Below are positions 9,636 through 15,307 of a stretch of DNA of 64,000 bases, in pieces. Each line of letters opens with the position of its first letter. Within the stretch, counting starts at the first letter, position 1. The notes below the pieces were generated by a model. It searched no databases and was not told the origin of the DNA. It worked only from the letters and a program-made list of their open reading frames with translations. The position numbers and the translations under genes are program-made. Source of the stretch: Azoarcus sp. (GTDB taxonomy: Bacteria > Pseudomonadota > Gammaproteobacteria > Burkholderiales > Rhodocyclaceae); the NCBI GenBank assembly GCA_030604735.1, contig JAUVVG010000002.1, positions 62,001-126,000 of the forward strand, given 5' to 3'.

Positions 9636-9649
9636 ATGATCTGGATCAA
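9636..9649. promoter_or_regulatory. FNR/ANR-type box in the cytochrome c peroxidase promoter
   Basis: ATGATCTGGATCAA matches TTGAT-N4-ATCAA at 9 of 10 specified positions. A TTTAAT hexamer at 9672-9677 is correctly placed as a -10 element. If transcription starts near 9684, the box is centred at about -41.5, the class II FNR position. The rest of the 314-bp interval 9421-9734 must also hold the macA promoter, which I could not pinpoint. Confidence 0.65.
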
Positions 9650-9688
9650 AAGCCCCTTTTCCGGGTGGGTGTTTAATCGGTCCCAGTT

Positions 9689-9705
9689 TTTAGACACAGT
9701 CTAAA
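9689..9705. promoter_or_regulatory. Perfect dyad TTTAGAC-ACA-GTCTAAA in the ccp leader
   Basis: A perfect 7-bp inverted repeat with a 3-bp spacer, 29 bp before the peroxidase ATG. With the inferred start near 9684 it would cover about +5 to +21, a repressor position. Its TTTAGA...TCTAAA half-sites resemble the iron control element bound by Irr. The Fur-family gene downstream of ccp (10917-11336) looks Irr-like, so autoregion binding is a reasonable inference. Confidence 0.5.
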
Positions 9706-9734
9706 TCACCGATTTCTCACTCAAGGAGTGCACC

Positions 9735-10739
9735 ATGAAAGTCGAGTTGAAGCATCTTGCGATGGCCGTGGCGGTTGCCGTTGCCAGCACCGCTGCATGG
9801 AGTTCCACCGTTCGCGACGAACCGATCACCCCGATCGAGCCTTATGTTTCGGACAAGCCCGAGATGGTCGAGCTGGGCAAGAAGCTGTTCTTCGAGCCGC
9901 GCCTGTCGATGTCCGGCATCATCTCCTGCAACACTTGCCACAATCTGTCGCGGGGCGGTACCGACAACATCGTGACTTCGATCGGTCACGGCTGGAAGGC
10001 TGGGCCGGTGAACTCGCCGACCGTGTTGAACTCCAGCCTCGCTATCGCCCAGTTCTGGGACGGCCGCGCAGCCAACCTGCAGGAGCAGGCCGGTGGACCG
10101 ATCCAGGCCGATGTCGAAATGAACATGCCGCACACGCTGGCGTTGGATGTACTCAACTCCATCCCGGGTTACCAGGACGAGTTCGAACAGGTTTTTGGCA
10201 AGCGCGAAATCGACATGGACATGGTGACCGCCGCGATCGCCGAGTTCGAGGAGACGCTGGTCACGCCGAATTCACGCTTCGACCAGTGGCTCAAGGGCGA
10301 TGACAACGCAATCACCGCGGTCGAGCTCGAAGGCTACAAGCTCTTCAAGGATAGTGGCTGCACCGCCTGCCACAACGGCGCTGCCGCCGGGGGCACCTCG
10401 TTCCAGCGCATGGGTATCGTCCGCGCCTACGAGAGCACCTCGCCGGTCGAAGGTCGCTACTCGATCACCGGTGATGATGCCGACCGCTTCAGCTTCAAGG
10501 TCCCGACCTTGCGCAATGTGGAATACACCTATCCGTACTTCCACGATGGTCAGGCAAACACCCTCGAAGAGTCGGTCGACATCATGGGCCAGATCCAGTT
10601 GGGCCGTCATTACACCGAGGAGGAAATCGACAAGATCGTGGCCTTCCTGAAGACGCTCAATGGCGACATGCCGAACCTGACGTTGCCCATCCTGCCGCCG
10701 TCCTCCAACGACACGCCGCGTCCGAACCCGTTCCAGTAA
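9735..10739 (+). CDS. ccpA: Di-haem cytochrome c peroxidase
   Basis: This periplasmic enzyme reduces hydrogen peroxide to water with electrons from small c-type cytochromes. The 334-aa protein has a signal peptide (AMAVAVAVASTAAWS) and two haem motifs, CNTCH (C65, C68, H69) in the N-terminal electron-transfer or peroxidatic half and CTACH (C209, C212, H213) in the C-terminal half. It also has the family segments KLFFEPRLSMSG, SPTVLNSSLAIAQFWDGRA and KVPTLRNVEYTYPYFHDG. AAGGAG lies nine bases before the ATG. The FNR-type promoter agrees with the low-oxygen induction known for pseudomonad ccpA. The next gene encodes a Fur-family regulator, suggesting a peroxide/iron response module. Confidence 0.93.
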   Translation: MKVELKHLAMAVAVAVASTAAWSSTVRDEPITPIEPYVSDKPEMVELGKKLFFEPRLSMSGIISCNTCHNLSRGGTDNIVTSIGHGWKAGPVNSPTVLNSSLAIAQFWDGRAANLQEQAGGPIQADVEMNMPHTLALDVLNSIPGYQDEFEQVFGKREIDMDMVTAAIAEFEETLVTPNSRFDQWLKGDDNAITAVELEGYKLFKDSGCTACHNGAAAGGTSFQRMGIVRAYESTSPVEGRYSITGDDADRFSFKVPTLRNVEYTYPYFHDGQANTLEESVDIMGQIQLGRHYTEEEIDKIVAFLKTLNGDMPNLTLPILPPSSNDTPRPNPFQ

Positions 10740-10774
10740 AGCGTATTCGCCTCGAATACGGACGTGATTGCGAG

Positions 10775-10800
10775 ACCCGCGCTTGCGCGGGTTTCGTGTT
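10775..10800 (+). terminator. Rho-independent terminator after ccp
   Basis: ACCCGCGC-TT-GCGCGGGT forms an eight-base-pair stem followed by TTCGTGTTT, starting 36 bp after the ccp stop. It would separate ccp from the Fur-family gene. Confidence 0.65.
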
Positions 10801-10916: not shown

Positions 10917-11336
10917 ATGGTGTCAGCCCGTTTTACCGGCCCCGCCGAGCGCCTGCGACGAGCAGGCATCCCGCCCACCCGTCAGCGCATGGCGATCGCC
11001 GAAGTATTGTTTGCCCGGCCAGTCCATCTCTCCGCCGATCAGGTCCTCGCCCGGGTGCGCGAGCAGATGCCCGAAATGTCGCGTGCCACGGTTTACAACA
11101 CCCTCAAGCTCTTTCGCGAGAAGAACATGGTCAGGGAACTCGTCGTCGATCCCGAGCGGGTGTTCTACGATTCGAACACCGACCCGCATTACCACCTTTT
11201 CGATGTCCGCACTGGAGAACTGTCGGATGTTTCTGCGGACGAGTTGCAGGTTGTCGGTACGCCGGTTCTCCCGGCTGGCCTCGAACTTGAAGAAGTCGAC
11301 GTCATCATCCGGGTGAGAAGCCGCGAGCCGGCCTGA
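10917..11336 (+). CDS. Fur-family transcriptional regulator, Irr-like
   Basis: The track ORF starts at 10764, but AAGGAG lies directly upstream of ATG 10917, giving 139 aa. The winged-helix DNA-binding domain (RRAGIPPTRQRMAIAEVLF, then SRATVYNTLKLFREKNMVREL) is followed by a dimerisation domain with FYDSNTDPHYHLFDVRTGEL. The protein contains no cysteine at all, so the CxxC structural zinc sites of Fur, Zur and PerR are missing. The YDSNT.PHYH segment resembles Irr (YDTNT..HHHF), the haem- and iron-responsive member. Proposed role: control of ccp and perhaps iron genes, via the dyad at 9689. Irr versus PerR-like assignment is inference. Confidence 0.8.
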   Translation: MVSARFTGPAERLRRAGIPPTRQRMAIAEVLFARPVHLSADQVLARVREQMPEMSRATVYNTLKLFREKNMVRELVVDPERVFYDSNTDPHYHLFDVRTGELSDVSADELQVVGTPVLPAGLELEEVDVIIRVRSREPA

Positions 11337-11431: not shown

Positions 11432-12982
11432 CTACTGCCGCCTGGCCGTAATCAAGGCCCCTGTATCGATACCCAGCGTGTAGCCAAGCGACACATGGTG
11501 GAAACGGCCTGCGGTGTGGCCGTCATGGATGGCGAAGCCGAAGTTGTAGGTTTCCCCCTGCACAAGCCTGATGTCGCCATCGCCGCCTGCAAGCCGGCGG
11601 ATGAAGGCCACGGTCCAGGTATCCCCTTCTCGCACGCCCGTGGCTTCGACCAGCGCGCTGCCGCCCTCCATCACCCGCGTGTCGGCGACATGGCCGTCAT
11701 GGCCGCGGTTCCCGCCGCTGCGCCACTGCACCAGGTCGTAGAAGACGCCCCCTTGCAGCGAGCCGCCCTTGACGTACTTGGTTCGCTCCTCATCGGCGCC
11801 CGGCATGCCGCGCGAGTCGGCATGGCAGCTGGCCCAGCAGCCATTGCGCTCGGCGCCCTCGACCTTGCCGGCGTCGAGCATGAAGGCAAGCTTGACCGGA
11901 TTGTCGACGTCCATCTTCTCGCCTTCCGCAGCCGGGGGCTGGGTCCAGCTGAAGCGCAGATGCAGATGCTCGTCGTCAAGTGCCGCCTGGACCTGGACCG
12001 GGACGGCCGGCACCTTGCCCGGGATCGGCGTGGGTTCGAGCTTGGCGCCGGTGACGATGCGTCCGCCCATGCGCTCGGTTTCGTCGACATGGCAGGCGTA
12101 GCAGGTTTCGCCATTCTTGAATGCCCAGCCGCCACCATGGCGGTCGCGCCCGATGCGCAGGTCGCCGGTGATCCATTCGGTGTGCGCGATGCCCGGGTAG
12201 AGCAGCACGACTTCCAGTGCCTGGACCTGGCTCCAGTCGATGGTGGGCACCTGTGCGGCTTGCGCCGGGACCGGTGCCGCCCCGGGGGCGGCTGCGGTTG
12301 GCGAAGCAGTGTCGAGGATCGTACCCACGGTCGTGCTGCCGGCGTCGGCTTGAGCTTTTGCAGCGGTCGGCGCTGGGCGCAAGGTGTCGAGATAATCCTC
12401 GTCGGCCATGTCGTCCGGCAAATGGTGGGCGATGCCCTGGTGGCAGACGATGCAGGTGATGCCCTCGTCGCGTGCCCGCTGGTGCTGGCGCGATGACCGG
12501 GTCGCCTGTTTCGCCATGTCCATGCTCTCCAGTCCATGGCAGTTACGGCACTCCAGCGAATCATTGGCAAGCATGCGTTTCCACTCTCGGCGCGCCAGCG
12601 TCAGCCGCTTGTCCTCGAATTTCTCGCGGGTATCGATGCTGCCGGTGAGCTTGCCCCACAGTTCGCGCGAAGCCTGTACCTTGCGCACCATCTTTGGACC
12701 CCATTCACGCGGCACATGGCAATCCGCGCAGGTCGCCCTCACCCCGGTGCGGTTGTTGAAATGGATGGTTTCCTGATATTCGACGTAGACGTTGTCGTAC
12801 ATCTCGTGGCAGGAGATGCAGAACTTCTCGGAGTTGGTCCATTCCATGGCGGTGTTGAAACCGCCCCAGAAAATGACGCCGGCAATGATTCCGATGGCGA
12901 GAAGCGCACCGGCCGAATACTCCGCGCTGGGGCGGGTCAGCCTGCGCCAGAGGGCGCCTCGGGACGAATCGGGTGAGCTCAT
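11432..12982 (-). CDS. NapC/NirT-type multihaem cytochrome c fused to an EB_dh-like haem domain
   Basis: A 516-aa membrane-anchored cytochrome. An N-terminal helix (LLAIGIIAGVIFWGGFNTAMEW) leads into a NapC/NirT tetrahaem domain with CISCH (55-59), CADCH (85-89), CRNCH (145-149) and CIVCH (177-181). An Ala/Pro linker follows (about 203-246), then a C-terminal domain with CYACH (294-298) and CWASCH (382-387), the latter a CX3CH spacing. The C-terminal part resembles the EB_dh/cytochrome c-552 (DMSO reductase-like) haem-binding fold (DEHLHLRFSW, NYGFAIHDG-like end). It probably takes quinol electrons to a periplasmic terminal reductase, as TorC does. No reductase is adjacent. A candidate FNR-like box lies upstream. 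Confidence 0.82.
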   Translation of the reverse strand: MSSPDSSRGALWRRLTRPSAEYSAGALLAIGIIAGVIFWGGFNTAMEWTNSEKFCISCHEMYDNVYVEYQETIHFNNRTGVRATCADCHVPREWGPKMVRKVQASRELWGKLTGSIDTREKFEDKRLTLARREWKRMLANDSLECRNCHGLESMDMAKQATRSSRQHQRARDEGITCIVCHQGIAHHLPDDMADEDYLDTLRPAPTAAKAQADAGSTTVGTILDTASPTAAAPGAAPVPAQAAQVPTIDWSQVQALEVVLLYPGIAHTEWITGDLRIGRDRHGGGWAFKNGETCYACHVDETERMGGRIVTGAKLEPTPIPGKVPAVPVQVQAALDDEHLHLRFSWTQPPAAEGEKMDVDNPVKLAFMLDAGKVEGAERNGCWASCHADSRGMPGADEERTKYVKGGSLQGGVFYDLVQWRSGGNRGHDGHVADTRVMEGGSALVEATGVREGDTWTVAFIRRLAGGDGDIRLVQGETYNFGFAIHDGHTAGRFHHVSLGYTLGIDTGALITARRQ

Positions 12983-14369: not shown

Positions 14370-15307
14370 CTTCCTTCCAGTTTGAATACGATGGGGACGG
14401 TGACCCAGGCTTCGACCGGCCGTTCGCCCTGCTTTGCCGGCGCGAAACGCCACTTGCCGACAGCCGACTCCGCGGCCCTGTCGAGCCGGGGATGACCGGA
14501 ACCCTGTTGGATCTCGACCCGCTTGGCCTGCCCTTGAGGTGAGACCTGTACCCGTAACAGGACCCGACCCTCTTCGCGCATTCTGCGCGATAAAGGGGGA
14601 TAGGGGGGCGGCGGATTGCTCAGGTAGGCGGCATCGAAGCGGGCGTCCGAGAAGGCATGGTCGGGCGCGCTGCCGCTGGCAAGGCCTCGGGCGCGTGGAG
14701 AACTGGCCGGCTCGGTCGCTGTCGGTGCTGTGGACGTGGTGGGGGCGCTCAGCGAGGGCTTGCCGGCCGACGCAACCGGGGACGGTGGTGTCACGGCCGG
14801 GACCGCGACGGGAGGCGCCGGCCTCGGCCGCGGCGGTTCCGGTTTTGGCTCAGGCTCAGGCTTCGGCTCAGGCTTCGGCTCAGGCTTCGGCTCAGGCTTC
14901 GGCTCAGGCTTCGGCTCAGGCTTCGGCTCAGGCTTCGGCTCAGGTCTGGGGGGTGGAAGGGGGGCTTCGGCAGGCGTGGGTTGCGGCGGTGTGGCCGGCT
15001 CCTCGGGCGGAGGCGGGGGCGTCTGTGGTGGAGCGGCTTCGAGCGGGGGAGGGGCGTTCGACTGCGGCGTTGCGGCGGCCAGGGCGGATTGTTCCAGGAC
15101 AGTCGCATTGGCCGCTGCGGCATTGGTCTCGGCCGAGCTGGCCTGTTCGATCAAGGTGATCGCGATCGGAGCAATCACGACTGGCGTCAAATCCCTTTGC
15201 CAATGTGCGATGGCGCTTGCCAGCGTGACATGGCCGGCAATCACCAGTGCGAGCAGCAGCCTGTTCTCGCGTCCACCGGGTGCCAGTGTCTTGCTCCGGC
15301 CATCCAT
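14366..15307 (-). CDS. tonB: TonB energy transducer with long KPEP linker
   Basis: TonB links the proton motive force to outer membrane receptors such as the one at 2056-4260. Visible parts are the N-terminal anchor (RLLLALVIAGHVTLASAIAHW), a Pro-rich region with perfect KPEP repeats that spans the periplasm, and the C-terminal domain (YPPLSRRMREEGRVLLRVQVSPQGQAKRVEIQQGSGHPRLDRAAESAVGKWRF) ending in VFKLEGR. The track ORF extends to GTG 15451, but the added 48 residues are unlike TonB and neither site has a good ribosome site. I prefer ATG 15307 (MDGRSKTLAPGG, 313 aa). Confidence 0.88.
   Translation of the reverse strand: MDGRSKTLAPGGRENRLLLALVIAGHVTLASAIAHWQRDLTPVVIAPIAITLIEQASSAETNAAAANATVLEQSALAAATPQSNAPPPLEAAPPQTPPPPPEEPATPPQPTPAEAPLPPPRPEPKPEPKPEPKPEPKPEPKPEPKPEPKPEPEPKPEPPRPRPAPPVAVPAVTPPSPVASAGKPSLSAPTTSTAPTATEPASSPRARGLASGSAPDHAFSDARFDAAYLSNPPPPYPPLSRRMREEGRVLLRVQVSPQGQAKRVEIQQGSGHPRLDRAAESAVGKWRFAPAKQGERPVEAWVTVPIVFKLEGR
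14857..14940. repeat. Seven perfect 12-bp tandem repeats inside tonB
   Basis: CAGGCTTCGGCT is repeated seven times without mismatch, encoding (KPEP)n in TonB, with degenerate copies flanking it. The unit is a multiple of three, so copy-number change would alter the length of the periplasmic spacer without a frameshift. Confidence 0.9.

Follow-up and report, generated by a model that had tools for sequence, protein, structure and literature searches.

The cytochrome c peroxidase gene (ccp) of an Azoarcus sp. is preceded by an FNR-type box and a perfect inverted repeat, and it is followed by a gene for a Fur-family protein. The question raised by this locus is which signals its promoter combines. 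The earlier note had proposed an FNR-type activator acting together with a repressor, encoded next to ccp, that is released by an iron/haem or peroxide signal. Below, the window is the whole stretch of 64,000 nt that was analysed, and coordinates refer to it. Judging from sequence comparisons, we consider it probable that the ccp promoter is a two-input gate, low oxygen AND peroxide, in which the neighbouring PerR-like protein serves as a repressor acting on the dyad.

Layout of the ccp promoter

The region contains the following features.

9636 to 9649, plus strand: FNR-type box ATGATCTGGATCAA, ATGAT and ATCAA around CTGG; predicted centre at −41.5
9672 to 9677, plus strand: −10 element TTTAAT; TNNAAT in most relatives
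9684, plus strand: predicted transcription start, placed 7 nt after the −10 element and deduced from it
9689 to 9705, plus strand: candidate operator, the perfect dyad TTTAGACACAGTCTAAA, TTTAGAC and GTCTAAA around ACA; predicted +6 to +22
9723 to 9728, plus strand: ribosome-binding site AAGGAG
9735 to 10739, plus strand: ccp, di-haem cytochrome c peroxidase, with ATG at 9735
10769 to 10798, plus strand: stem-loop resembling a terminator, downstream of ccp and ahead of the regulator gene
10917 to 11336, plus strand: gene of a Fur-family (PF01475) regulator, Irr/PerRA type; candidate for the repressor that acts on ccp

The ccp product scored 200 bits against PF03150 (CCP_MauG family; cut-off 25.6), it has two CxxCH motifs (CNTCH and CTACH), and the closest structure is 1IQC (442 bits). 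The number of stem-loops in the region was close to that in shuffled sequence, which leaves the terminator call at 10769–10798 weak; the stem suggests, if weakly, that ccp and the regulator gene form separate transcripts. Beside the regulator gene, the minus strand (11435–12982) encodes a protein in which an N-terminal domain of NapC/NirT-type multihaem cytochromes is joined to a haem-binding domain of the ethylbenzene dehydrogenase type. Elsewhere in the window, a perfect 12-bp tandem repeat with 7.7 copies (14853–14944) encodes a Lys/Pro/Glu repeat in a TonB-like protein.

The FNR-type box, the TTTAAT −10 element and the perfect dyad were all found where the earlier note had placed them. The box matches TTGAT-N4-ATCAA at 9 of the 10 specified bases and is conserved in relatives, as is its spacing to the −10 element (a gap of exactly 22 nt in the window promoter). 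Given this gap and a start taken as 9684 (predicted), the centre of the box falls at −41.5, in agreement with the earlier estimate, and the dyad spans +6 to +22, a correction of the +5 to +21 proposed before. A search for a sigma-70 promoter with −35 and −10 elements in front of ccp found none, as would be expected if the promoter depends on an activator.

Taken alone, the FNR-type box is a weak signal: 36 sites with no more than two mismatches were found in the window versus 12.5 expected in shuffled sequences. The dyad is the sole match with up to three mismatches in the 64 kb (0.26 expected), and a scan of the whole 4.06 Mb genome revealed no second copy with 0–2 mismatches. With a dyad unique in the genome, the ccp promoter would be the single strong site of the regulator here. 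A genome-wide iron or haem regulon built on the dyad was rejected for the window genome, just one site having been found. The composite of box and dyad is far from chance; a dyad and a box, each with no more than two mismatches and the box 51–53 nt upstream of the dyad, occurred together in 22 of the 24 promoters of ccp genes that have the regulator gene next to them, versus none of 7200 dinucleotide-shuffled upstream regions.

Which protein reads the box is a separate matter. The window genome encodes an FNR scoring above its curated cut-off along with six further Crp/FNR-family proteins, and several relatives have TTGAC-N4-GTCAA boxes instead; given these proteins and these boxes, a protein other than FNR may be the activator. 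The box could be read by a DNR/NnrR-type member of the family; in that case nitric oxide or denitrification, and not low oxygen as such, would be the first input. The same two observations count for this possibility, as does the presence of denitrifiers among this group. However, ATGAT-N4-ATCAA, the box in the window, contains the half-site of FNR, and the FNR of this genome passes its cut-off; we regard a DNR/NnrR-type reader as unlikely.

The dyad and the regulator gene in relatives

A scan of contigs with the Fur-family protein yielded 29 loci; the window genome belongs to one genus with the genome that has the Azoarcus taiwanensis contig. In all 13 loci where ccp lies just upstream of the regulator gene the dyad was present before ccp; in two close relatives without ccp (L054 and L059) no dyad was seen. 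Box, −10 element and dyad stay aligned among relatives while the flanking sequences diverge, and this phylogenetic footprint backs the layout proposed initially, FNR-type activation with a repressor site over the start.

We then have a survey of 250 genomes of Rhodocyclaceae, with ccp genes defined by at least 60% identity and the dyad by no more than two mismatches. The dyad was present in 24 of 24 promoters of ccp genes with the regulator gene adjacent, in 4 of 9 with the regulator elsewhere in the genome (three of them at one mismatch), and in 1 of 57 in genomes without the regulator. For this comparison the Fisher p value is 3e-17 if relatedness is ignored. Such a near-perfect association across genomes supports the adjacent Fur-family protein as the repressor, as the earlier note had it. 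The exact sequence TTTAGA-N5-TCTAAA was found in 17 of 45 regulator-bearing genomes versus 0 of 49 ccp-bearing genomes without the regulator. In all 23 promoters of standard spacing, 35–36 nt separate the first base of the box from that of the −10 element. The dyad is closer to the box in five relatives, at just 25–39 nt; at this spacing it would lie over the −10 element or the start, still a position for a repressor.

Mapped on the CCP tree, the dyad changed 12 times and the regulator 12 times. Among phylogenetically independent pairs, 5.2 of 7 agreed and 0.1 disagreed (median p 0.06); with this correction the association between dyad and regulator is borderline. Two members of one genus (G503 and G332) are sisters in the CCP tree and differ in both regulator and dyad. 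Three genomes (G343, G386 and G525; loci L105, L087 and L107) have close homologues of the regulator, no recognisable ccp and no good dyad. Another genome, G021, has no regulator homologue, yet it contains 13 near-dyads such as TTTAGAACCTGTCTAAA (L029:1501–1517); these are perhaps a repeat element or sites of a different regulator.

The probable signal at the dyad

Scores of the regulator against curated family models were highest for IrrA (NF045678; 121.3 bits, cut-off 150), followed by Irr (111.5 bits, cut-off 170) and PerRA (90.5 bits, cut-off 200), the best of the PerR models; every curated Irr and PerR cut-off was thus missed. The nearest solved structure, by sequence as well as by fold, is Leptospira PerR (5NL9), a PerR that responds to peroxide, the fold comparison having been done with an AlphaFold2 model of mean pLDDT 86. 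The PerR metal ligands H37, D85, H91, H93 and D104, together with N61, are invariant in 65 of 65 homologues. The residue numbering of B. subtilis PerR was checked against the alignment to 2FE3, which is ungapped over residues 9–106. The Cys4 structural zinc site of classical PerR is missing: no cysteine occurs at its four positions in the 65 homologues. Going by its targets and ligands, the protein would work like PerR; it is assigned to neither curated family.

The targets were read from dyads in other genomes. In regulator-bearing genomes, dyads that are not at ccp stand mostly before ahpC, katG and rubrerythrin genes (confirmed by Pfam), so that, as for a PerR-type regulon of peroxide-scavenging enzymes, dyads precede ccp, ahpC, katG and rubrerythrin; this is the target set of a peroxide regulator. 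At the level of the order, a regulator homologue was found in 95 of 300 genomes, and it is over-represented among those that bear a dyad (38 of 66, with an odds ratio of 4.2). Among the dyad loci read at this level, 13 of 16 in regulator-positive genomes adjoin rubrerythrin, ahpC or ccp, versus 1 of 14 in regulator-negative ones. The signal is therefore likely to be peroxide rather than iron or haem, as far as sequence features can tell. Thus, from the signals named in the earlier note, peroxide is favoured by the dyad targets, the PerR ligands and the closest structure, and iron/haem is disfavoured.

Several observations outside the main set concern the same regulator. A genus with a divergent regulator (∼50% identity; G304, G363, G408, G443, G473, G497, G517 and G534) has dyads before ahpC and katG, and ccp is without a good dyad in both of the members for which the promoter of this gene was inspected. 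In a Chromatiales MAG (L070:5400–5926) the regulator gene is located ∼2.4 kb from a rubrerythrin gene that lies behind two neighbouring dyads; by this arrangement the regulon may extend past Burkholderiales. In an Acidiferrobacterales MAG a dyad-like sequence TTTATAATTATTCTAAA (L073:2940–2956) is situated just upstream of the regulator gene, which suggests autoregulation; no such site was found upstream of the regulator gene in the window.

A second line of observations came from OxyR. We searched ccp promoters for the OxyR tetramer pattern ATAG-N7-CTAT-N7-ATAG-N7-CTAT. Matches at 14–16 of the 16 positions were present in 23 of 57 ccp promoters (∼40%) in genomes without the regulator, always close upstream of the FNR-type box, at a distance of 45–55 nt; none of 9000 shuffled regions reached the same level. 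The FNR-type box itself (no more than two mismatches) was present in 45 of these 57. No tetramer was seen in the 24 ccp promoters with an adjacent regulator gene. One genome (G325), with the regulator 7 kb away, has both; another (G067) bears the dyad yet groups with OxyR-type ccp genes. OxyR was rejected as a regulator of the window ccp promoter, the tetramer being absent there, and no tetramer with two or fewer mismatches was found in the window genome. On the simplest reading of this pattern, a single FNR-dependent promoter would have traded one peroxide input for another, unrelated one.

It could be argued that the regulator is a true Irr, a sensor of haem or iron status; by repressing ccp during a shortage of iron or haem, it would avoid synthesis of a haem enzyme that lacks its cofactor. 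The dyad half-site, which we take to resemble the Irr box, was counted for this explanation, along with IrrA and Irr as the best family models and the HxH motif of Irr, present as H91-Y-H93. In addition, R. sphaeroides Irr binds the ccpA promoter (PMC3413700). Against it, the protein scores under both Irr cut-offs, and it has no cysteine and hence no haem regulatory motif of the B. japonicum type; the dyad targets that were read are peroxide enzymes, not haem or iron genes; a bacterioferritin gene in the window is without a dyad; and this arm of the promoter alternates with OxyR sites. A true Irr seems to us rather improbable. It is highly improbable that the dyad serves another regulator with the neighbouring Fur-family gene being unrelated: the genome does encode two more Fur-family proteins, but from genome to genome the presence of the dyad tracks this regulator gene, including cases in which the two lie apart. 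Finally, it is hardly credible that the dyad works as an RNA hairpin that stabilises the mRNA from its 5′ end or governs its translation; this reading was rejected, since, even though the dyad is inside the predicted 5′ untranslated region and could form a 7-bp stem, 14 sequences showed no compensatory change (the outermost pair was broken in 5 and the innermost in 6), and the same dyad precedes unrelated genes only in genomes that have the regulator.

A proposed two-input gate and its known counterparts

In the favoured two-input gate, the first input would come from an FNR-type protein that is active when oxygen is low, binds 9636–9649 and activates from about −41.5, as suggested by the box, its spacing and the FNR encoded in the genome. 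A dimer of the regulator (PerR-like, free of the zinc site, of the Irr branch), loaded with Fe or Mn, would occupy the dyad, which spans about +6 to +22 by prediction, and prevent initiation at ccp; the position of the dyad and its co-occurrence with the regulator gene point to repression by the neighbouring protein. Hydrogen peroxide would oxidise the iron-ligand histidines of the regulator, the repressor would leave and ccp would be transcribed. Release by metal-catalysed histidine oxidation, a chemistry described for PerR (PMC8115020), is what the ligands, the relatives and the targets suggest. Such a gate would restrict synthesis of the periplasmic di-haem peroxidase to conditions that combine low oxygen with peroxide.

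Parts of this picture are already known: Irr at ccp in Rhodobacter, repression of ccp by PerRA in Leptospira and FNR–OxyR gating in E. coli. In the literature searched, with subscription papers mostly outside its range, we did not find an FNR-type box paired with an operator of the Irr/PerR type. Neither an exchange of OxyR and dyad within one family nor a peroxide regulon in Burkholderiales was found in the literature searched. The same literature contained no paper on the regulator in Betaproteobacteria, which does not prove that there is none. As for the wider proposition, that Burkholderiales have a peroxide regulon under a PerR-like, zinc-site-free regulator of the Irr branch that was repeatedly swapped with OxyR on an FNR-dependent ccp promoter, we see its chances as evenly balanced.

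If it is true, an upstream activator and a downstream repressor would be interchangeable devices for one AND gate. It would also suggest that the Irr of alphaproteobacteria may have its origin in a peroxide sensor. The two-input gate, for its part, would mean that Rhodocyclaceae, many of them denitrifiers, control a periplasmic peroxidase by a defined oxygen-AND-peroxide switch; Fur-family genes now stuck between ‘Irr’ and ‘PerR’ would gain a recognisable operator, and close species pairs would show one promoter logic built with either an activator or a repressor. It has a bearing on a question that PMC8115020 calls open, why some bacteria have kept OxyR alongside a PerR-type sensor.

The pairing of an Irr-branch Fur-family protein with a cytochrome c peroxidase promoter is shared with the alphaproteobacterium R. 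sphaeroides, whose Irr bound the ccpA promoter in vitro, with only two Irr boxes predicted in that genome (PMC3413700). The Irr box there differs in being located ∼40 nt upstream of the mapped start, and the regulator gene is not described as a neighbour of ccp (PMC3413700). This Irr target, ccpA, goes down, not up, with peroxide (PMC3413700), which counts against the two-input gate as an explanation, as do the missed family cut-offs, the six further Crp/FNR-family proteins, the five promoters of shorter spacing, the three genomes with a regulator and no recognisable ccp, and the borderline result on the CCP tree.

In Leptospira, PerRA represses ccp, ahpC and catalase (PMC8638967, PMC10294975). 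An Irr-box-like autoregulatory sequence is described for PerRA (PMC10294975, PMC8638967), and both PerRA and PerRB are without CxxC zinc motifs (PMC8638967). PerRA (5NL9) thus resembles the window regulator as its nearest solved structure, in the missing CxxC zinc motifs and in having ccp and ahpC as targets; it differs in that its host is a spirochaete without OxyR, its regulon is broad and, in the passages covered, no FNR-type arm is reported.

B. subtilis PerR has the five regulatory-metal ligands and N61 in common with the window regulator and differs in its Cys4 zinc site and its Gram-positive host. Its operator is the PerR box, which is different from the dyad.

A counterpart in logic is E. 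coli yhjA, the ccp gene of that species, which is under control of FNR and OxyR (Partridge 2007, as described in PMC10301912); its expression was proposed to require both low oxygen and peroxide (PMC10301912). As at yhjA, a cytochrome c peroxidase gene would be under double control of an anaerobic activator and a peroxide sensor. Unlike yhjA, the window promoter has no OxyR site, and its second arm is a dyad over the start with a Fur-family protein as the putative repressor. By this analogy, the comparison suggests the logic of yhjA with derepression in place of activation by OxyR.
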